A DNA stretch of 64,000 nt, taken from the NCBI RefSeq assembly GCF_001507645.1, contig NZ_CP013909.1, forward strand, positions 4,092,001 to 4,156,000, in the 5' to 3' direction. Below the pieces are notes generated by a model. The model saw nothing but the letters and a program-made list of their open reading frames with translations, was not told where the DNA came from and did no database searches. This stretch comes from Hymenobacter sedentarius (GTDB lineage: Bacteria; Bacteroidota; Bacteroidia; Cytophagales; Hymenobacteraceae). The first letter of the stretch is position 1, and each line of letters opens with the position of its first letter. Position numbers and translations under genes: made by a program. This document shows, piece by piece, positions 31,270 to 62,055 of the stretch.

Positions 31270-32601
31270 CTAGATGTACTGATTGATAATAGCTTCCAGC
31301 CACTCCTGTTTGCCGCTGCGGGGCGTGGGTTCGCCGCTCTTCATGGCGATGGTGCGCAGGTCTTCCAGGCTCAATTCGCCGCGCTCGTAGGCCGCGCCTT
31401 CGCCCGAATCAAACGAGGCGTAGCGCTCCTGGCGAAACTTGCGGTAGGGCGACTTTTCCAGGATGTCATTGGCCACCACCAGGGCGCGGGCGAAGGTGTC
31501 CATGCCCGAGATGTGGGCGATGAAAATATCCTCCAAATCGGTGGAATTGCGGCGGGTTTTGGCGTCGAAATTGATGCCACCGGGCTTTATACCGCCGTGC
31601 TCCAGGATGATGAGCATCGACTCGGTCAGTTCGTTGAGGTTGTTAGGAAACTGGTCGGTGTCCCAGCCGTTCTGGTAGTCGCCGCGGTTGGCGTCCATGC
31701 TGCCCAGCATGTTGGCGTCGGCCGCTACCTGTAGCTCGTGCTGGAAGGTGTGGCCGGCCAAGGTGGCGTGGTTCACTTCCAGGTTCAGCATGAAGTCGTT
31801 TTCCAGGCCGTGCTCCTTCAGGAAGCCGATGACGGTAGCGGCGTCGAAGTCGTACTGGTGCTTGGTGGGCTCGGCCGGCTTGGGCTCGATGAAGAACTTG
31901 CCTTTAAAGCCTTGTTTGCGGGCGTAGTCGCGGGCCATGGTCAGGAAGCGGCCCATGTGCGCCTGCTCGCGCTTCATGTCGGTGTTGAGCAGGGTCATGT
32001 AGCCCTCGCGGCCGCCCCAGAACACGTAGTTCTCGCCGTTGAGCGCAATAGTGGCGTCGATGGCATTCTTGACCTGCGTGGCCGCGTGGGCCACCACCTG
32101 GAAATCGGGATTCGTGCTGGCCCCGTTCATGTAGCGCGGGTTCGAAAACACGTTGGCCGTGCCCCAGAGCAGCTTCACGCCGGTCTCCTGCTGGTGCTGT
32201 TTCGCATAGTCGACGATGGTTTGCAGGTTGCGCTCGTACTCGGCCAGCGAGTCGCCTTCCTCCACCAAATCAATGTCGTGGAAGCAGTAGTAAGGCGTGC
32301 CGAGCTTGGTGAAAAACTCGAAGGCAGCGTCCATCTTGTCCTTGGCACGGCCGATGATTTCGTGGTGCGTATCCCAGGCAAATTGCTTGGTGCCGGGCCC
32401 GAACGGGTCGCCGCCCGTGCCGGTGAAGGTGTGCCAGTACGAGACGGCGAAGCGCAAGTGCTCCTTCATGGACTTGCCGCCCACCATGCGGTTTTCGTCG
32501 TACCACTTAAAGGCCAGCGGGTTGTCCGACTCGCGCCCTTCGAAGCGAATGGTGTCGATGCCCGTGAAAAATTCGGTTTTAGAAAGCGTGCTGCTTGACA
32601 T
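31270..32601 (-). CDS. xylA: Xylose isomerase
   Basis: 443 residues, the class II length. It converts D-xylose to D-xylulose. Signatures: [54 protein letters not shown] (metal-ligand Glu and the essential Lys), [15 protein letters not shown], and [20 protein letters not shown] (metal-binding Asp cluster). [10 protein letters not shown] carries the catalytic His region. Its start lies 23 bp inside the end of xylB, so the two are read as an overlapping pair. Cytosolic. Confidence 0.97.
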
Positions 32602-34102
32602 GGGAAGGAGTGGTTGGGTTAGGAATAAGTTGAGCTAAAGCGTGTTGCCAGCGGCCGTACGCGGCGTGGTATTGTTCGCGCAGCCGGTCGGTGGGCTCCA
32701 CGGTCAGGATGCGTTCGAGCCCAATGAAGGCTTCGGTGGGGCTGGCGTACACGCCGGCCCCGACGCCCGCGCCGCGCGCCGCGCCCTGGGCCGCGTCGGT
32801 GTTGTAGAGCTCCAGCTCCACGTTGCCGCTGTTCACGAAGGCTTCGCGGAACACCGGGCTCAGGAACATGTTGGCGTTGCCGGCGCGCACCTGGCGCACC
32901 TGCACCCCGGAGGCCCGCATGATGTCCATGCCGTAGTTCAGGGCGAACACGATGCCCTCCTGGGCGGCGCGCAGCACGTGCTTCTGGTGGTGAATGTTGA
33001 AGTTGAGCCCGCGCAGCGCGGCGTCGGCCGGGCGGTTTTCGAGGATGCGCTCCACGCCGTTGCCGAAGGGCAGGAATACGAGGCCCTCCGCTCCTACCGG
33101 CGCCTGGGCGGCCAGCTGGTTCATCTGGTCGTAGGGCAGCTCGCCCACGATTTTGCGCAGCCAGCTGTTGAGAATGCCCGTGCCGTTCAGGCACATGAGC
33201 ACGCCGTTGCGGGGCTGCGCAGCCGTGCTGTTTACGTGCACGAAAGAGTTCACGCGGGAGCGCGGGTCGGGCGTGTTGGTTTCGTTGATGCCATACACCA
33301 CGCCGCTCGTGCCGCCCGTGGCCGCTACCTCGCCGGGGTGCAGCACGTTGAGCGAGAAGGCATTGTTGGGCTGGTCGCCGGCCCGGTAGCTGATGGGCGT
33401 ACCGGCCGTGAGGCCCAGTTCCTGCGCCGCCTCGGGGCTTAAGTGGCCCTGCACCGAAAAGGTGTTCACCACCTCGGGCAGCAGGTCGGCGCTGATGCCG
33501 TAGTAGTCCAGCAAATCCTGGGCAATGGCCTGCTTCTTAAAATTCCAGAACACGCCTTCCGACAAGCCTGACACCGTGGTTTGCAGCCGCCCGCTCAGCT
33601 TGAAGGCAATGTAGTCGCCGGGCAGCTGAATTTTGTGAATCTGGGCGTAAATCTCGGGCTCGTTTTCCCGCACCCATTTCAGTTTAGAAGCCGTGAAGTT
33701 GCCGGGCGAATTCAAGAAGTTGCTCAGGCAATACTCTTCCCCCAGCTCCTCAAATGCCTTATCACCGTATTCCACGGCCCGGCTATCGCACCAGATGATG
33801 GCCGGGCGCAGCACCTTGCCGTCCTTGTCAATCAAGACCAGCCCGTGCATCTGGTACGTGATGCCGATGCCGGCCACCAGGTCCGTATCGAAGCCGTAGT
33901 CGGCCTTGAGTTGGGCGGTGGCGTTCACGACTTCCTGCCACCAGCGCTCGGGGCGCTGCTCGGCCCAGTTGGGCTGGGGCACGGTGATTTCCATCTCCTG
34001 CTTGGGCGAGATGGCCGCGGCCACGCACTTGCCGGTATGAATGTCGAGCAAGGAGGCTTTGATGGAAGAGCTACCGATGTCGTAGCCGAGGAGGTATTTC
34101 AT
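32579..34102 (-). CDS. xylB: Xylulokinase (FGGY family)
   Basis: 507 residues. It phosphorylates D-xylulose to xylulose-5-phosphate, feeding the pentose phosphate pathway. The N-terminal phosphate-binding loop [18 protein letters not shown], substrate region [20 protein letters not shown] with WCDSR, central Asp in [17 protein letters not shown], and [12 protein letters not shown] are normal for the family. It is transcribed before xylA and overlaps it by 23 bp. The FGGY fold is broad, but pairing with xylA makes the substrate clear. Confidence 0.95.
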
Positions 34103-34140
34103 AGTTGATACAGATTGATAGAAGTCGTCATGTTAAAGAA

Positions 34141-34243
34141 GACCGTCATGCTGAGCGCAGTCGAAGCATCTCGCGTGTTTCGTTGCAATGGCATTGATTA
34201 GTTGCGCGAGCGAGATGCTTCGACTGCGCTCAGCATGATGGTC
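34141..34243. repeat. GTCATGCTGAG palindromic repeat between xylB and GH3 genes
   Basis: The left arm 34141-34174 (GACCGTCATGCTGAGCGCAG...) is inverted at 34210-34243 with one mismatch. A stray GTCGTCATGTTAAAG before it looks like a degraded extra end. Confidence 0.9.
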
Positions 34244-45497: not shown

Positions 45498-46328
45498 TTA
45501 AAAGCCAATGGAATTGCCGCCGTCCACGGGTAGCGACACGCCCGTGATGTAGCGTGCGGCCGGCGAGGCCAGGAACACGGCCGCGTGGCCGATGTCGGCG
45601 GGCTGGCCGAAGGCGCCCATGGGCGTGCGCCGCATGGCCCGGTCGCGGCGCTCGGGGTCGGAGTTCATGGCCTTGCGGCTCATCTCGGTTTCGATGAAGC
45701 CCGGCGCAATGGCGTTCACGCGCACGCCCTGGCCCGAGAACTCCGAGGCCAGCACCTTCACCATGCCCTCCACCGCCGACTTGGATGCTGCATAAGCCAC
45801 CACGCGGTCGATGCCGTAGTAGGCAGCCATCGACGAAATCATGAGGATGACACCCTTCTTGCGGGCCACCATGCCCCGGGCGCACTCCCGGGTGAGGGCA
45901 AACACGGAGTGCAGGTTGGTGTGCAGAATGCGGCTGAATTCCTCGTCCGTGACTTCCAGCGCCGGCTTCTTCATGTTGATGCCGGCGTTGTTGACCAGAA
46001 TGTCCAGGGGGCCGTAGCTGGCTTCAACCTGCGCCACCAGCCCTTCGATGGAGGAGAGGTCGTTGATATCGTTGACGATGTATTGAGCCGACCGGCCCAG
46101 GCCCTCCGCGGCGTCGCGCAGCACTTCTTCGCGCCGGCCCGTGATGACCACCGTGGCCCCGGCCGCAGTCATGCAGCGCGCGATTTCGAGCCCAATGCCC
46201 GTGCCGCCGCCGGTGATGAGGGCCAGCTTGCCGTCCAGCGAAAACACGTTTTCGGGCTGGGGCTGGGCCACAGCTACCCCCACAGGTTCGGGCTGGCCGT
46301 TGGGAGCGAGATTAATAGAAATCGGCAT
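45498..46328 (-). CDS. SDR-family oxidoreductase, proposed fructuronate reductase
   Basis: 276 residues from MPISINL at 46328. Rossmann fold with cofactor loop ITGGGTGIGLEIARCM, VNNAGINMKKPALEV, catalytic Ser in ISSMAAYYG and the Tyr/Lys pair VAYAASKSAVEGM, then INAIAPGFIETEMSRK. By sequence it belongs with gluconate 5-dehydrogenase/KduD-type enzymes. Between alpha-glucuronidase, mannonate dehydratase and SusC genes, the expected missing step is D-fructuronate to D-mannonate, so I infer a UxuB-replacing SDR. A gluconate or 2-keto-3-deoxygluconate dehydrogenase cannot be excluded. Confidence 0.85.
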   Translation of the reverse strand: MPISINLAPNGQPEPVGVAVAQPQPENVFSLDGKLALITGGGTGIGLEIARCMTAAGATVVITGRREEVLRDAAEGLGRSAQYIVNDINDLSSIEGLVAQVEASYGPLDILVNNAGINMKKPALEVTDEEFSRILHTNLHSVFALTRECARGMVARKKGVILMISSMAAYYGIDRVVAYAASKSAVEGMVKVLASEFSGQGVRVNAIAPGFIETEMSRKAMNSDPERRDRAMRRTPMGAFGQPADIGHAAVFLASPAARYITGVSLPVDGGNSIGF

Positions 46329-46362
46329 AGTGTTGATTTCGATGAGATTGGCAGGGAAAGAA

Positions 46363-48489
46363 TTACTTGAGCTGATAGAGGTCCACCAGGCTTTTGACTT
46401 CGGCCAGCGTGCGGGTGGGCGGGGCAAAAGGCGCCGGAATGGGCTGGCGCGAATAGGTCTGGAAGTAGAGCACGCAGGCATCGCGCCACCACAGGGCTTC
46501 CTGCCGCTGGATTTGCAGGCGGGCCGTGACGTCGGCGTGCACGGCGGGGTCCACGGCGGGTTTCACGCTGGCCCAGCGCTGCTGCATCCAGGTCACGGAG
46601 TCGGCGCCGGTGTAGTAGCGGGTCACCAGCTCGTTCCAGAGGGTGCGGCCGGTGGGCAGCGGCTGCTTCCAGCCCACGTGATGGAACCAGAGCAGGTAGT
46701 TGAGCGGGCAGGTTTTGGGGTCGCCCCACTGCTTCTGCACGCCGGGGGAGTACAGCGCCAGGGCGTTGGAGCCGGTGGCGGTGCGGTTGAAGCCCAGCCC
46801 CAGGGAGTCGGCTTTGTGGTAGTACACGGCCGTCCAGTCGGGGCGGCCGGCCTTGGCCAGCCAGGGCTGGGGGCCGTAGTGAATGCTCTCGCCCATGATG
46901 TGGTGCAGGCCCAGCGGTGTGGTGTAGCGCACGTAGATGTCGCGCGACTTATCCATCATATCCACGATGGTGGCCACGGCTTTGGGCTCGCGGGTCAGGG
47001 TCATCTTGGCCCATTCGGTGGCAATGGCGGCCGAGGTCAGGTGGTAGTCCCAGGCCAGGCGGCCGAAGGCGTACCAGTTGGCCTGGCCCATGGGGTGGCC
47101 GGTCCAGTTGCGGTCGGAACCGATGTTGGCCACGCCCGCAATGCCGCTGATACGGTGCTGGTCGAGGCTGCCGTCCACCACCTTCGCCACCATGGAGCCG
47201 GGGCCCTTGGTTTGGGTATCCGAATCGAGGCACTCTTTGAAAAGCGGCGCCAGATACACCAGGTGCGTGGCAAAGCCCAGGTACTCCTGGGTAATCTGCA
47301 CTTCGAGCACCAGCGGCGTCTTGGGCATGGCCCCAAACAGCGGGTGGAACGGCTCGCGGGCCTGGAAGTCAATGGGCCCGTTCTTCACCTGCACCAGCAC
47401 TTTGGGCAAGAACTTGCCATCGAGCGGCTTAAACTCCTCGTAGGCTTCCTTAAATCGGTCGCCGTTGCTGTTGGCCTTGTACACAAAGGCGCGCCACATC
47501 ACGATGCCGTCGTGCTGGCCCAAGGCGTCGGCCAGCATGTTGGCGCCGTCGGCGTGGTTGCGGCCGTAGTCCTGCGGGCCGGGCTCGCCCTCGGAGTTGG
47601 CCTTCACCAGAAAGCCGCCGAAGTCGGGAATTACCTTATAAATCTCCTCGGTCTTGGCGGCCCACCACTGCTTCACTTGCGGGTCGAGCGGGTCGGAGGT
47701 TTTCAGGCCGCCTATCACCTTGGGCGCGGCCCAAAACACCGACAAGTATACCCGGATGCCATAGGGCCGAAACACGCCGGCCAGGGCCTTCACCTTCTGC
47801 AGGTACTCGGGCGTGAGGTAGCGCGCGCTGGCGTTCACGTTATTAATAGCCACGCCGTTTATGCCAATCGAGGCATTGGCGCGGGCATAGTCGGTATAGC
47901 GCGGGTCGAGGTTGTTGGGCAGCTCGTACCATTTCCAGATGGACGAGCCCGCGTAGCCCCGCTCCACCGTGCCGTTCGGGTTGTCCCAATGGTTGAGCAG
48001 GCGGTACTGAATGCGCGGACTGCTGGCCTGAGCCAGGTTAGAAACTGGCTGCCCGGTCTGTAGTTCCCGCAGCAGAGCAAACACACCGTAGAGTACGCCG
48101 GCTCCGCTCCTACCCGTCACCACCAGGTTGCGGCCTTGGGCTAAAATGCGGTAGCCGTCCTGGCTGTGCCCGGTTACGGAAACGTTTGCGGTCGGGCTTA
48201 CTATTAAAAGAATCCCGCGTTTTGTACTACCTGACTCCACCTTTGCCACCACCGGCACCGGCTGGCCCAATAGCCCTTGCAGGCCGCGCTGTAGTTCCTT
48301 CGCGGCTGTCTTAAGCACTATTGAGCTGCCATCGGCGGCAATGTACTGGGCTGCTTGCCGGTAGGCGTTGCGTTGGGCCACATCCGTAATCGGGTCGTAC
48401 TTGAGCCACAGCCGGTAGCCATCGTCGGCCAAGCCGCGGTGCGCGGCGGCAACGAATACCAACAGGAGCAATAAAGACCGGAGCGACAT
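46363..48489 (-). CDS. GH67 alpha-glucuronidase
   Basis: 708 residues with signal peptide (LRSLLLLLVFVAAAHRGLA). GH67 removes 4-O-methyl-glucuronic acid from the non-reducing terminal xylose of short xylo-oligosaccharides. Family segments: YRLLNHWDNPNGTVERGYAG, GINGVAINNVNASARYLTPE, VYLSVFWAAPKVIGGLKTSD, FLVKANSEGEPGPQDYGRNH and WYAFGRLAWDY. The catalytic acids should lie in the FLVKANSEGEPG region and near it. It lies 24 bp after uxuA and 34 bp before the SDR gene, clearly one operon. It complements the GH115 enzyme, which acts on longer chains. Confidence 0.95.
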   Translation of the reverse strand: MSLRSLLLLLVFVAAAHRGLADDGYRLWLKYDPITDVAQRNAYRQAAQYIAADGSSIVLKTAAKELQRGLQGLLGQPVPVVAKVESGSTKRGILLIVSPTANVSVTGHSQDGYRILAQGRNLVVTGRSGAGVLYGVFALLRELQTGQPVSNLAQASSPRIQYRLLNHWDNPNGTVERGYAGSSIWKWYELPNNLDPRYTDYARANASIGINGVAINNVNASARYLTPEYLQKVKALAGVFRPYGIRVYLSVFWAAPKVIGGLKTSDPLDPQVKQWWAAKTEEIYKVIPDFGGFLVKANSEGEPGPQDYGRNHADGANMLADALGQHDGIVMWRAFVYKANSNGDRFKEAYEEFKPLDGKFLPKVLVQVKNGPIDFQAREPFHPLFGAMPKTPLVLEVQITQEYLGFATHLVYLAPLFKECLDSDTQTKGPGSMVAKVVDGSLDQHRISGIAGVANIGSDRNWTGHPMGQANWYAFGRLAWDYHLTSAAIATEWAKMTLTREPKAVATIVDMMDKSRDIYVRYTTPLGLHHIMGESIHYGPQPWLAKAGRPDWTAVYYHKADSLGLGFNRTATGSNALALYSPGVQKQWGDPKTCPLNYLLWFHHVGWKQPLPTGRTLWNELVTRYYTGADSVTWMQQRWASVKPAVDPAVHADVTARLQIQRQEALWWRDACVLYFQTYSRQPIPAPFAPPTRTLAEVKSLVDLYQLK

Positions 48490-48513: not shown

Positions 48514-49752
48514 TTAGGAGTATTGCTGGGCTTCGGCGCGCACGCTGGGCGGCGCGTCCTCGGCTTCCAGACTGCGGCGGATGCCGTATTCCAGGCCGCG
48601 CAGCTCGGCTAGCCCGCGTAGGCGGCCGATGGCGGAGTAGCCGGGGTAGGTTTTCTTCTTGAGGTCGTCGAGCATCTGGTGGCCGTGGTCAGGGCGCATG
48701 GGGATGGCGCGGCCGCCGTGCTCGGCGCGGCGCAGCTCCTCCAGCACCAGCTCGCGCACCACGGCGTACATGTCCACGTCGCCCGCCAAGTGGTCAGCTT
48801 CGTGGAAGTTGCGCGGATTGTCTTCGCGCTTAGTAGTCCGCAGGTGGATGAAATGGATGCGGGGCCCGAAGCGGCGCGCAATGGCGGCGGGGTCGTTGTC
48901 GGGCCGCACGCCCAGGGAGCCGGTGCAGAACGTGAGGCCGTTGGCTGGCACGTCGCAGGCCGCCATCAGCTGGGCAATGTCGGCTTCGGTGCTCATCACG
49001 CGGGGCAGGCCCAGCAAGGGAAACGGCGGGTCGTCGGGGTGAATGCAGAGGCCGATGCCGAGTTCCTGAGCTACCGGAGCTACTTCTTGAATGAAGTAGT
49101 GCAGGTTTTCGCGCAAGGCCTGCGCATCGATAGCGGCGTACTCATCGAGCAAGCTTTGAAAGCCGGCCAGTTCAAACGCTTCTTCGGAGCCGGGCAGGCC
49201 CAGCAGCACGGTATTGGTGAGGCTGGCAATGGCCTCGGGGCTCATGGCGGCGAACTGCTGCCGAGCGGCTTCGGCCACGGCGGGTTCGTAATCGTTTGCG
49301 GCGCCGGGCCGCTTAAGAATAAAGAGGTCGAATACGGCGAAATCCTGCCACACAAACCGCAGGGCGCGCGAGCCGTCGGGCATTTCGTAGCTCAGGTCGG
49401 TGCGCGACCAGTCCAGCACCGGCATGAAGTTGTAGCACACGGTGCGAATGCCGCAGGCCGCCAAGTTGCGCAGCGACTCCTTGTAATTCTCTATGTACTG
49501 CTCGCGCGAGGGGCGGCCTTTCTTAATGTCTTCGTGCACCGGCAGGCTCTCCACCACTTCCCAGTGCAGGGGGGAGTGGGTGGCGTTGTCGGCTTCGATG
49601 AGTTGCTGGCGGGCCCGAATATCCGTAACGGGCCACTCCGCTCCTACTGGTATCTGGTGCAGCGCCGTAACCACGCCCGCGCACCCAGCCTGCCGAATAT
49701 CAAAAAGCGAAACCGGGTCGTGCGGACCGAACCAACGCATGGTGTGTAGCAT
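48514..49752 (-). CDS. uxuA: Mannonate dehydratase
   Basis: 412 residues. It dehydrates D-mannonate to 2-keto-3-deoxy-D-gluconate in glucuronate catabolism. The N-terminus is typical (MRWFGPHDPVSLFDIRQAGC, GVVTALHQIP). Other marks are CYNFMPVLDWSRTDL, LCIHPDDPPFPLLGLPR (metal-ligand His/Asp), HLRTTKREDNPRNFHEADHL and RPDHGHQML. Translation may start at Met1 or at Met5 (49740). First gene of the uxuA-GH67-SDR-susC-susD unit, divergent from the LacI-type regulator, so probably controlled by it. Confidence 0.95.
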   Translation of the reverse strand: MLHTMRWFGPHDPVSLFDIRQAGCAGVVTALHQIPVGAEWPVTDIRARQQLIEADNATHSPLHWEVVESLPVHEDIKKGRPSREQYIENYKESLRNLAACGIRTVCYNFMPVLDWSRTDLSYEMPDGSRALRFVWQDFAVFDLFILKRPGAANDYEPAVAEAARQQFAAMSPEAIASLTNTVLLGLPGSEEAFELAGFQSLLDEYAAIDAQALRENLHYFIQEVAPVAQELGIGLCIHPDDPPFPLLGLPRVMSTEADIAQLMAACDVPANGLTFCTGSLGVRPDNDPAAIARRFGPRIHFIHLRTTKREDNPRNFHEADHLAGDVDMYAVVRELVLEELRRAEHGGRAIPMRPDHGHQMLDDLKKKTYPGYSAIGRLRGLAELRGLEYGIRRSLEAEDAPPSVRAEAQQYS

Positions 49753-49922
49753 AAGACGCTTCTTCAGAATACAATTTATCCATACACTAATCCGGCGGGT
49801 AACGCTCGAGTCTCAAAAAGCTACCGGAAACCTATTTGCTGGACTACTTACCGAAAGTACATAATGATTACCTATAGTCAATACCCGAAAAACAGCTTAA
49901 ACAACTTGTTTTCAGGGAAAAA

Positions 49923-49956
49923 CTATCGGCAACGATTCCGGAATCGTTGCCGATAG
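49923..49956. promoter_or_regulatory. Perfect 34-bp palindrome, probable LacI-family operator
   Basis: The half-site CTATCGGCAACGATTCC is followed directly by its exact reverse complement, with a central C-G step typical of LacI-family operators. It lies 171 bp upstream of uxuA, 121 bp upstream of the regulator gene and 41 bp upstream of that gene's -7 element. A single protein bound here could control both directions. Confidence 0.75.
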
Positions 49957-49997: not shown

Positions 49998-50005
49998 TAC
50001 CTTTG
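49998..50005 (+). promoter_or_regulatory. Probable -7 element of the LacI-family regulator gene
   Basis: TACCTTTG matches TAnnTTTG, 72 bp before the start codon. No -33 TTG at ideal spacing was found. Confidence 0.45.
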
Positions 50006-50076: not shown

Positions 50077-51258
50077 ATGATAACCTGCGTCAAATGCAAA
50101 CAGAGTAGCTCGGTCTTGAAAGCCGGCTTCGTGCGGGGCCGTCAGCGCTTTTTGTGCAAGGCCTGCGACTACCACTTCACGGAGGAGAAGCCCGCCGGCC
50201 AGCTCACCGAGCGCCGCCGCCGCCAAACCACCATCGGCGACGTGGCCAAGGCCGTGGGCGTGGCCTCCTCCACGGTGTCGCGGGCCCTGAACGGGCACAC
50301 CGACATCAGCCCCACCACCCGCCAGGCCATTCTGGACGCGGCCCGGCAGCTGGACTACCACCCCAACCTGCTGGCCCAGAGCCTAAAAAGCCGCGAAACC
50401 CACACCCTCGGCGTTATCATTCCGGACATTGAGCGGCCGTTTTTTGCCACCGTAGTCAGCGGCATTCAGGACGTGGCCTCCGAGGCCGGCTACCGGGTAA
50501 TGATTTGCCAGTCAAAAGAATCGTACCAAACGGAGGTGAGCAACGTGCAGGCCCTGGTGGCCAGCCGGGTCGACGGCCTGCTCATTTGCCACTCGCGCGA
50601 AACCAGGAACTTCGACCACGTGAAGCCCGAGGCGTGCCGGGGCGTGCCCGTGGTGCACTTCGACCGCGTGAGCGACGAAGTAGACAGCGCCAAGGTGATT
50701 CTGGACGACTGGAACGGCGCCTTCAACGTCACCGAGCACCTCATTCAGCAGGGCGCGCGCCGCATCGCCATTCTGGCGGGGCCCGAGACGCTGCTCATCA
50801 GCCGCAACCGCCTGGCCGGCTACCAGCACGCCCTGAAGCGCTACAACCTCGACCTGCGCCCGGAGTATGAGGTGCACATCGAGTTCCAGACGGAAGAGGC
50901 CGTGGCCGCGCTCGACAACTGGCTGGCCCTACCCGAGCCCCCCGATGCCATTTTCGCCATCAACTACACCAACGCCTTCGACCTGCTGGTGGCCCTAAAA
51001 AAGCGCCACCTGCGCGTGCCCGACGACATTGCCGTGGTGGGCTTCGGCGACGAATTCATGGCCTCCATGATAGAGCCGGGCCTCACCACCGTCAACCTCC
51101 ACCCCTACCGCATCGGCCAGCAGGCCGCCCGGCTGTTCCTGGAGCAGGTGCGCGAAAAGGAGGATTTCCAGCCCCGCACCTTCGTCATCTCCGGCGATTT
51201 GGTTATTCGCGGCTCCTCATTGAAAGGTAAGGGCGACTCGTTTAGTCTGAGTATTTAA
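50077..51258 (+). CDS. LacI-family regulator with N-terminal InsA-like zinc ribbon
   Basis: 393 residues. Residues 1-35 form a C4 zinc ribbon (Cys4, Cys7, Cys27, Cys30) in the pattern CVKCKQSS ... RGRQRFLCKACDYHF, like the N-terminal ribbon of IS1/InsA-type transposases. A basic linker then leads to the LacI helix-turn-helix (TIGDVAKAVGVASSTVSRAL, residues 52-71). The periplasmic-binding-protein-like sensor follows (TLGVIIPDIERPFFATVVSG; VDGLLICHSRE; RIAILAGPET; PDDIAVVGFGDEFMASM). Ordinary LacI proteins are about 335-345 residues and begin at the HTH, so the ribbon is extra. It probably represses or activates the divergent glucuronoxylan genes. Confidence 0.92.
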   Translation: MITCVKCKQSSSVLKAGFVRGRQRFLCKACDYHFTEEKPAGQLTERRRRQTTIGDVAKAVGVASSTVSRALNGHTDISPTTRQAILDAARQLDYHPNLLAQSLKSRETHTLGVIIPDIERPFFATVVSGIQDVASEAGYRVMICQSKESYQTEVSNVQALVASRVDGLLICHSRETRNFDHVKPEACRGVPVVHFDRVSDEVDSAKVILDDWNGAFNVTEHLIQQGARRIAILAGPETLLISRNRLAGYQHALKRYNLDLRPEYEVHIEFQTEEAVAALDNWLALPEPPDAIFAINYTNAFDLLVALKKRHLRVPDDIAVVGFGDEFMASMIEPGLTTVNLHPYRIGQQAARLFLEQVREKEDFQPRTFVISGDLVIRGSSLKGKGDSFSLSI

Positions 51259-51291: not shown

Positions 51292-51376
51292 GTCATGCAG
51301 AGCGCAGCGAAGCATCTTATCACCGCGGAACGAATCGTTGAGCCGGGAGAAGATGCTTCGCTGCGCTCTGCATGAC
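51292..51376. repeat. GTCATGCAGAG-type palindromic repeat
   Basis: GTCATGCAGAGCGCAGCGAA... (51292-51318) is exactly inverted at 51350-51376. It is a variant subfamily (CAGAG and GCGAAGC instead of CTGAG and GCCGAAGC), also present at 61971-62055. With the terminator after it, it accounts for most of the 350-bp gap 51259-51608. Confidence 0.9.
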
Positions 51377-61902: not shown

Positions 61903-62055
61903 GTCATGCTGAGCGCAGCCGAAGCATCTCTACCTCAGTGCTAACTCAATCGCCTTTCCATTAATCGCCTGTCATGCAGAGCGCAGCGAAGCATCTTCTC
62001 ACGTTCGAACGAGTCGTTCCGCGGCGATAAGATGCTTCGCTGCGCTCTGCATGAC
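61903..62055. repeat. Half GTCATGCTGAG element followed by a complete GTCATGCAGAG element
   Basis: 61903-61933 is a lone left arm (GTCATGCTGAGCGCAGCCGA...). 61971-61997 and 62029-62055 form a complete inverted pair of the GTCATGCAGAG subfamily. The 383-bp gap 61831-62213 otherwise has only AT-richer sequence before the next gene. Confidence 0.85.

Follow-up and report, generated by a model that had tools for sequence, protein, structure and literature searches.

A 34-bp palindrome beside a LacI-type regulator gene with a zinc ribbon in Hymenobacter: a probable double operator whose symmetry may be partly of mutational origin

The window analysed here is a 64,000-nucleotide stretch of the Hymenobacter sedentarius genome in which a regulator gene and a putative sugar acid operon diverge from a common intergenic region. 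The regulator gene (50077..51258, + strand) encodes a LacI-family protein with a helix-turn-helix domain at approximately residues 52-97, preceded by an N-terminal zinc ribbon (Cys 4, 7, 27 and 30); residues 4-36 match an IS1/IS1595-type zinc-binding domain (29.7 bits for a cut-off of 28). Proteins of this type are called ribbon-LacI in the following. The divergent target is uxuA, coding for a mannonate dehydratase (48514..49752, - strand), and the next gene of the putative operon codes for a GH67 alpha-glucuronidase (46363..48489, - strand). It is followed by an SDR oxidoreductase gene (45498..46481, - strand), for which D-mannonate oxidoreductase is one among many family matches; since the SDR domain starts near residue 80 of this ORF, the true start may be further downstream than the listed one. 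The regulator was aligned with its homologues in a set of 26 proteins, made up of 24 of the 43 named ribbon-LacI loci described below, the window protein and a Cyclobacterium LacI (L075). The recognition-helix region is near-invariant in this alignment, with the exception of position 64, and so are the four cysteines of the zinc ribbon. In the AlphaFold model of the regulator (mean pLDDT 85), which is silent on DNA contact, the ribbon consists of three strands carried on a disordered linker (residues 39-48).

The intergenic region contains a perfect palindrome of 34 bp (49923..49956), made up of CTATCGGCAACGATTCC and its exact reverse complement. The two 17-nt arms (49923-49939 and 49940-49956) are 100% complementary and no gap separates them. 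Palindromes with arms of at least 17 nt are expected 8e-6 times in the window from its base composition, and the next-longest gapless arm in the window measures 9 nt. A search of the 4.87-Mb single-contig genome for the inner 20 bp gave one occurrence even when up to three mismatches were allowed, and the 17-nt half-site has nine matches elsewhere in the genome at 2-3 mismatches, where the same pattern read backwards has ten. As the half-site matches are at control level, the palindrome is not a dispersed repeat, and this identity was rejected. The sequence-only reading had described a perfect 34-bp palindrome and had considered that many genomic copies would make it a repeat; the former description is borne out, and the genome search with the inner 20 bp recovered this single copy.

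The conservation of the region was studied in the relatives of the regulator. A protein search in the named genomes retrieved 53 loci, 43 of which belong to Hymenobacter or Runella and match from the ribbon onwards; 42 of these have enough upstream DNA (L059, with 27 bp only, was excluded) and, together with the window, make up an alignment of 43 regions. The phylogenetic footprint obtained in this way, which had been put forward as a check on the palindrome, singles it out: the best-conserved 34-nt stretch of the 363-nt aligned piece is exactly the palindrome (mean majority share 0.855), it is ungapped in all 43 regions, and the runner-up elsewhere (0.778) lies inside the uxuA coding sequence. 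The consensus of the block, established by eye, is CTATCGGMAACGTTTCC followed by GGAAACGTTKCCGATAG. It can be read as two 22-bp LacI-type operators of the CTATCGGAAAC/GTTTCCGATAG type; their CG centres occupy positions 11/12 and 23/24, which puts them 12 bp from one another and gives an overlap of 10 bp. In the window, operator 1 (49923..49944, CG centre at 49933/49934) was placed using the pattern in 98 upstream regions and has its outer half-site toward uxuA, while operator 2 (49935..49956, CG centre at 49945/49946) follows the family pattern and has its outer half-site toward lacI. Counting against the two-operator reading, the window copy is degenerate as two operators: both CGs are kept and the joint palindrome is perfect, but each operator is asymmetric about its own centre, with 6 of 11 pairs complementary in either case.

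The spacing of the two centres was examined in a broader sample. An order-wide search (E <= 1e-25) detected ribbon-LacI in 79 of 390 genomes and in 11 of 129 genera, and provided 55 further upstream regions, 51 from Spirosomataceae (Runella's family) and four from the window's own family, for a total of 98. At the strict threshold, the 12-bp spacing accounts for 79 centre pairs in these regions, and 11 and 13 bp account for none; 20 rounds of shuffling produced four pairs over all spacings up to 60. With the looser threshold the counts are 93 pairs at 12 bp, two at 11 bp and one at 13 bp. The half-site pattern was derived from the same alignments, and spacing was no part of it; the rows are partly dependent, as L070 and L222 are probably one locus and close species inflate the shuffle tests. 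The 12-bp pair is present in 82 of the 98 loci and absent in 16, including both Runella rows of the alignment. Several of the loci without it, L206 and L216 among them, have one operator of 20-22 bp whose two sides consist of the same half-site (such a sequence is CTATCAGAAACGTTTGTGATA), which shows that the CG at positions 11/12, rather than the centre of the 34-bp block, is the LacI centre. At the level of sequence, the two-operator anatomy and the strict 12-bp spacing are thus established for this family. A favouring of 12 bp among strict core pairs was not found across the phylum, where 11, 4 and 14 of 395 genomes have such pairs at 12, 13 and 11 bp, respectively.

The distribution of the site follows that of the regulator. 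Among the matches listed, a degenerate 32-mer (up to three mismatches) is found in 63 of the 79 Hymenobacter genomes that have a ribbon-LacI orthologue and in none of the 41 that do not (Fisher p 2.6e-19 over 120 genomes), an orthologue being called present if its best match was stronger than 1e-150; the same 32-mer read backwards has no match in the 120 genomes. The 16 genomes that have the gene and miss the pattern include two close relatives of the window (G089 and G009), in which the 34-mers are present with four mismatches to the pattern. The top conservation of the palindrome and this co-occurrence, counted among the matches listed, make it very probably an operator of the neighbouring LacI-type regulator, as had been proposed from the window alone. 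The site also recurs elsewhere. In 16 of 16 examined loci, a second site precedes xylB, which encodes an FGGY kinase and has xylA adjacent to it, and at least one more genome (G119) has two matches to the 32-mer. The presence of this second site before xylB-xylA leads us to infer that the regulon unites glucuronate and xylose breakdown, as glucuronoxylan would require. The window's own xylB (32579-34102, - strand) has no such site. Two exact inverted-repeat elements with arms GAGCGCAGCGAAGCATCT were observed in the window (51300-51368 and 61979-62047), and a diverged relative of them lies near 34138-34240, directly upstream of xylB, at the place where relatives have the second operator.

The position of the site relative to the putative promoters was compared across the regions. 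Bacteroidota promoters are described as having -33 and -7 elements, the latter with the consensus TANNTTTGY (PMC12632263). A putative uxuA -7 box, TACTTTCG (49852..49859, - strand), was recognised in the alignment, and a putative -33 element, TTGAC (49877..49881, - strand), by its position and this promoter type, so that, downstream of the palindrome edge, the -33 box follows after 41 bp and the -7 box after 63 bp. On the strand of the divergent gene, a search for boxes of the form TAnnTT[TC][GA] found one starting at a distance of 62-63 bp from this edge in 41 of the 43 aligned regions, in 13 of the 16 xylB sites and in 23 of the 41 other double sites, with 6, 3 and 18 boxes, respectively, at other positions within 125 bp; 18 of the 41 other double sites have no box at 61-64. 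A single peptide motif served to recognise uxuA as the divergent gene, in 36 regions out of the 43 of the alignment and in 12 out of the 55 added to them; all of the former 36 have the 62-63-bp box. The distance is therefore near-constant on the target side, as far as predicted boxes go. The spacer between the operator and the uxuA -7 box (49860..49922, - strand) is A+T-rich every ~10.5 bp in the alignment; the A+T period of 10.5 bp over these ~60 bp was reached by 0 of 2000 position shuffles and 2-15 of 2000 block shuffles, and the periodicity of T alone is not significant (252 of 2000). For the predicted boxes, the promoter distance is accordingly fixed and helically phased at several targets. 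On the other side, a putative -7 box of the lacI-type gene, TACCTTTG (49998..50005, + strand), lies 41 bp from the palindrome edge. The equivalent distance is 40-41 bp in 24 of 43 regions and 33 or 25 bp in other groups, and since it varies in this way, it is the target side that carries the promoter argument. The proposal that the placement serves both divergent units agrees with these distances, near-constant to the putative uxuA promoter and shared in 24 of 43 regions to that of lacI. If the boxes are right, the site is centred near position -91 with respect to uxuA and xylB and near -70 with respect to the lacI gene. In a small-genome genus of Runella's family (L209, L213-L215, L218 and L221), ribbon-LacI adjoins uxuA and the operator is ~50 bp from the lacI start; these operators are single at the strict threshold, L215 being double at the looser one, and in L209, L213, L214 and L218 a -7-type box lies 65-66 bp from the operator on the uxuA side.

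Two modes of regulation may be considered for such a site. Because it lies at one distance upstream of the promoter at two unrelated genes, an activator would be a better fit than a promoter-covering repressor, and activation seems the more likely from these distances. Alternatively, the regulator could repress uxuA and xylBA from the same double operator upstream, for example through a DNA loop or by blocking an activator. Most characterised LacI proteins are repressors, which speaks for this alternative, although it appears the less probable of the two: the site ends upstream of both boxes, 63 bp before the -7 box and 41 bp before the -33 box, the 62-63 bp recur at two unrelated promoters, and a scan of the window found no second site near uxuA.

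The symmetry of the site was analysed about its joint centre and about those of the two operators. The complementarity test used 47 distinct sites, from 43 lacI-side and 16 xylB sites before the removal of duplicates. Complementarity exceeds the column expectation about the 34-bp centre only (684 of 799, reached in 0 of 2000 shuffles), a count in which the 16 xylB sites, found with a palindromic pattern, lean toward symmetry. No such excess is seen when the own centre of operator 1 (1215 of 2000) or operator 2 (1985 of 2000) is used, or under a shift of 12 bp (1020 of 2000). On the tree of the lacI genes, one parsimony reconstruction of the lacI-side sites yielded eight matching double changes at mirror positions on the same branch, where 3.5 of any kind were expected; the controls gave 1 and 0 about the operators' own centres, 3 for the 12-bp shift, and 1 and 1 when the mirror was slid by one base. 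As the recognition-helix region is near-invariant, changes in specificity do not seem to be what drives the arms. In addition, the symmetry overshoots the site by 5-8 bp in 4 of 43 lacI regions (L048 +8, L034 +7, L052 +6 and L045 +5), so that these palindromes span 44-50 bp, the 44-bp one having an internal mismatch. Permutations of the flanks never produced four regions with at least 5 bp (0 of 5000) and reached the single maximum of 8 in 118 of 5000, it being understood that L048 and L052 share the site and the flank type and may represent a single event; at the 16 xylB sites the overshoot never exceeds 2 bp. One genome, Hymenobacter sp. M29, has two ribbon-LacI copies (L040 and L048) with identical 34-mers, whose divergent-side flanks are an A-run in one case and a T-run in the other.

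These mirror changes and the overshoot indicate that the exactness of the palindrome is probably at least partly mutational, and the perfect symmetry probably owes no less to this than to additional protein contacts. The window copy is a good illustration, its joint palindrome being perfect although both operators have become asymmetric about their own centres. In the correction of quasi-palindromes by replication template switching, imperfect arms are made perfect through the change of several bases together and the symmetry spreads into the flanks (PMC7202029, PMC8794818). The sites studied here suggest that the exact identity of the arms is partly the product of such a correction, beyond what selection for protein contacts alone would maintain. 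The perfection of a palindrome may then reflect mutation in part, and should not be taken simply to measure protein contacts.

How the two operators would be occupied is a more difficult question. The data lead us to infer that LacI dimers bind the 34-bp site, yet the inner half-sites overlap in LacI structures, which makes the simultaneous filling of operators 12 bp apart hard to picture. One possibility is that they are two mutually exclusive operators that are used in turn and never hold two dimers together, either raising the local occupancy or switching between binding on the uxuA side and on the lacI side. The steric overlap of the inner half-sites, already argued for sites 13 bp apart (PMC4052901), and the fact that single operators suffice in some orthologues agree with this scenario. 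Nevertheless, alternate use alone does not require exactly 12 bp in two families and leaves the differing evolution of the inner and outer half-sites unexplained, and we regard it as unlikely, though well short of negligible.

A second possibility is the one raised by the sequence-only reading, namely one long operator in which a single dimer is centred on the 34-bp dyad and the zinc ribbons touch the outer arms. The covariation does track this dyad, the outer CTATCG/CGATAG is kept in both Runella rows despite a diverged inner part and no scored 12-bp pair, and in the model the disordered linker would make an outward reach of the ribbon conceivable. Yet the inner core, GTTTCCGGAAAC, does not have the usual AACGTT-type LacI centre, which is found at both outer CGs, and the single-operator orthologues are centred at the outer CG. 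The comparison with ribbonless proteins is also unfavorable to this scenario. The Cyclobacterium LacI L075 has no ribbon, shows 38% identity and lies beside a gene of SusC-like appearance; TGTAAACGTTATCGAAAACGTTTACA, with two centres 12 bp apart, is found upstream of it, and it is the only one with a double site among the nine distant LacI upstream regions scanned (L075-L079 and L081-L084). Among 20 plain-LacI control loci, hand-picked from the matches listed, a ribbonless Hymenobacter group (L233-L237) accounts for five with centres at 12 bp, and a scan for CG-centred palindromes found no 12-bp pair in the other 15. Long, overlapped sites are thus not restricted to proteins with a ribbon, and several ribbon-LacI genes, L206 and L216 among them, have a single operator of 20-22 bp. 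Since the 12-bp overlap exists in ribbonless relatives, the ribbon is not the reason for the length of the site and was rejected as the cause of the 34 bp; the extra ribbon contacts once proposed give way to two overlapping operators of standard size, and the extended operator appears improbable. The near-invariant cysteines and the flexible linker of the model do make a contact of the ribbon with the conserved outer CTAT/ATAG flank possible. In L233-L237, CG steps occur every 6 bp at ~160-320 bp upstream of the gene; at least four of these five loci seem to contain three operator centres at 12-bp intervals (AAAACGTTACCGGTAACGTTACCGGCATCGATTGCG in L234 and L236), which may form a longer array.

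Finally, a hairpin in RNA or DNA, such as a transcription terminator or another structured element, would also produce a compensatory pattern about the 34-bp centre, and TTTTT follows the palindrome on the uxuA strand while, at xylB, a co-directional gene ends 20-524 bp upstream of the site according to the listed ORFs, but it is very improbable given that conservation is among the highest at bases 17, 18, 20 and 21 of the would-be loop (44-47 of 47; 16 and 19 vary), that the site lies between divergent genes and upstream of both predicted promoters, that the Spirosomataceae copies are imperfect about the centre and that the site tracks the presence of the LacI gene.

On the whole, the palindrome is probably a double operator of the adjacent ribbon-LacI regulator that acts on the divergent promoters, with a symmetry partly maintained by template switching. 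As a double operator, it would most likely be occupied by LacI dimers as one complex, symmetric about the 34-bp centre, in which every dimer is anchored at its own outer half-site and CG step and the inner half-sites are in competition for one groove. The bound complex would influence the promoter on either side, activation from upstream being more likely than a block of RNA polymerase, and template-switch correction would help to maintain the identity of the arms. In its most specific form, in which one dyadic complex of two dimers shares or releases the inner half-sites, activates from a fixed distance and has its symmetry kept by template switching while the half-sites evolve in concert, the scenario is rather unlikely as a whole.

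Other double cores were observed outside this family of sites. In the window's genome, CGCAAACGTTGCCGGGAACGTTCCCG, with two LacI-like centres 12 bp apart, lies ~175 bp upstream of a SusC-like gene (L255 1501-1526; G000:C1:2225312-2225337); it is at chance level by count and was not counted, the loose double core having two further places in this genome at three mismatches and its reversed control also two. In a genome of the same class, the double core GGAACGTTTCCGGAAACGTTCC occurs twice in identical form at a distance of 9 kb (L260 and L268, at G721:C1:3298358 and 3307581).

Several known systems resemble parts of this arrangement. The predicted hexuronate regulators of Bacteroides (KdgR, UxaR, UxmR and UxuR) are likewise LacI-family proteins of a hexuronate pathway in Bacteroidota (PMC3878776), but the regulon proposed here joins uxuA-GH67 and xylBA, and the accessible part of that source mentions neither a ribbon nor a double operator for theirs; the subject of PMC12125979, as far as its accessible part goes, is an AraC-type XylR. 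In quasi-palindrome correction, as here, arms are perfected and symmetry runs into the flanks; it has been described for lacZ reporters and RNA genes in the parts of those reports available, whereas here it is proposed for a natural operator. A literature search that covered few subscription papers retrieved no paper dealing with ribbon-LacI, with LacI sites overlapping at 12 bp or with template switching in operators.

Regarding the promoter distance, the sites of class I activators, such as CRP at -61.5, -71.5 and -91.5, are also upstream, helically phased and at fixed distances from the promoter. In contrast to them, the present case involves a putative activator of the LacI type and a predicted Bacteroidota -33/-7 promoter.

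The closest parallel is found within the LacI family. Its standard operator is an even palindrome of 16-22 bp with a central CG (Ravcheev et al. 2014, PMC4052901), and the family alignment contains two 22-bp units of this kind next to a linked gene that co-occurs with them (63 of 79 against 0 of 41, among the matches listed). The same study reports overlapping LacI sites ~13 bp apart upstream of 110 operons, preferred in some groups, for which an artefact was deemed implausible and which are hard to reconcile with the structures; its type case is GntR at E. coli gntKU (PMC4052901). When the E. coli gntK sites were read from the sequence with the GntR consensus, they were indeed 13 bp apart. 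As in those sites, two even CG-centred operators overlap here in the half-site zone, and the overlap is conserved within an orthologous group (82 of 98 loci). Unlike them, the centres are 12 bp apart in these 82 loci (79 pairs against none at 13 bp at the strict threshold, 93 against one at the looser one) and the two operators together form an unbroken palindrome of 34 bp, which evolves around the joint centre; the spacing makes this site a variant of the overlapping LacI sites rather than a member of the class. Compared with the GntR sites of E. coli, it also belongs to a different phylum, has a ribbon-bearing regulator and a second conserved target, and lies at a near-constant distance from the promoter. 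It thus offers a clean, conserved 12-bp case, with natural single-site and ribbonless relatives and two target promoters at one distance, in which occupancy, geometry and the sign of regulation become directly testable.
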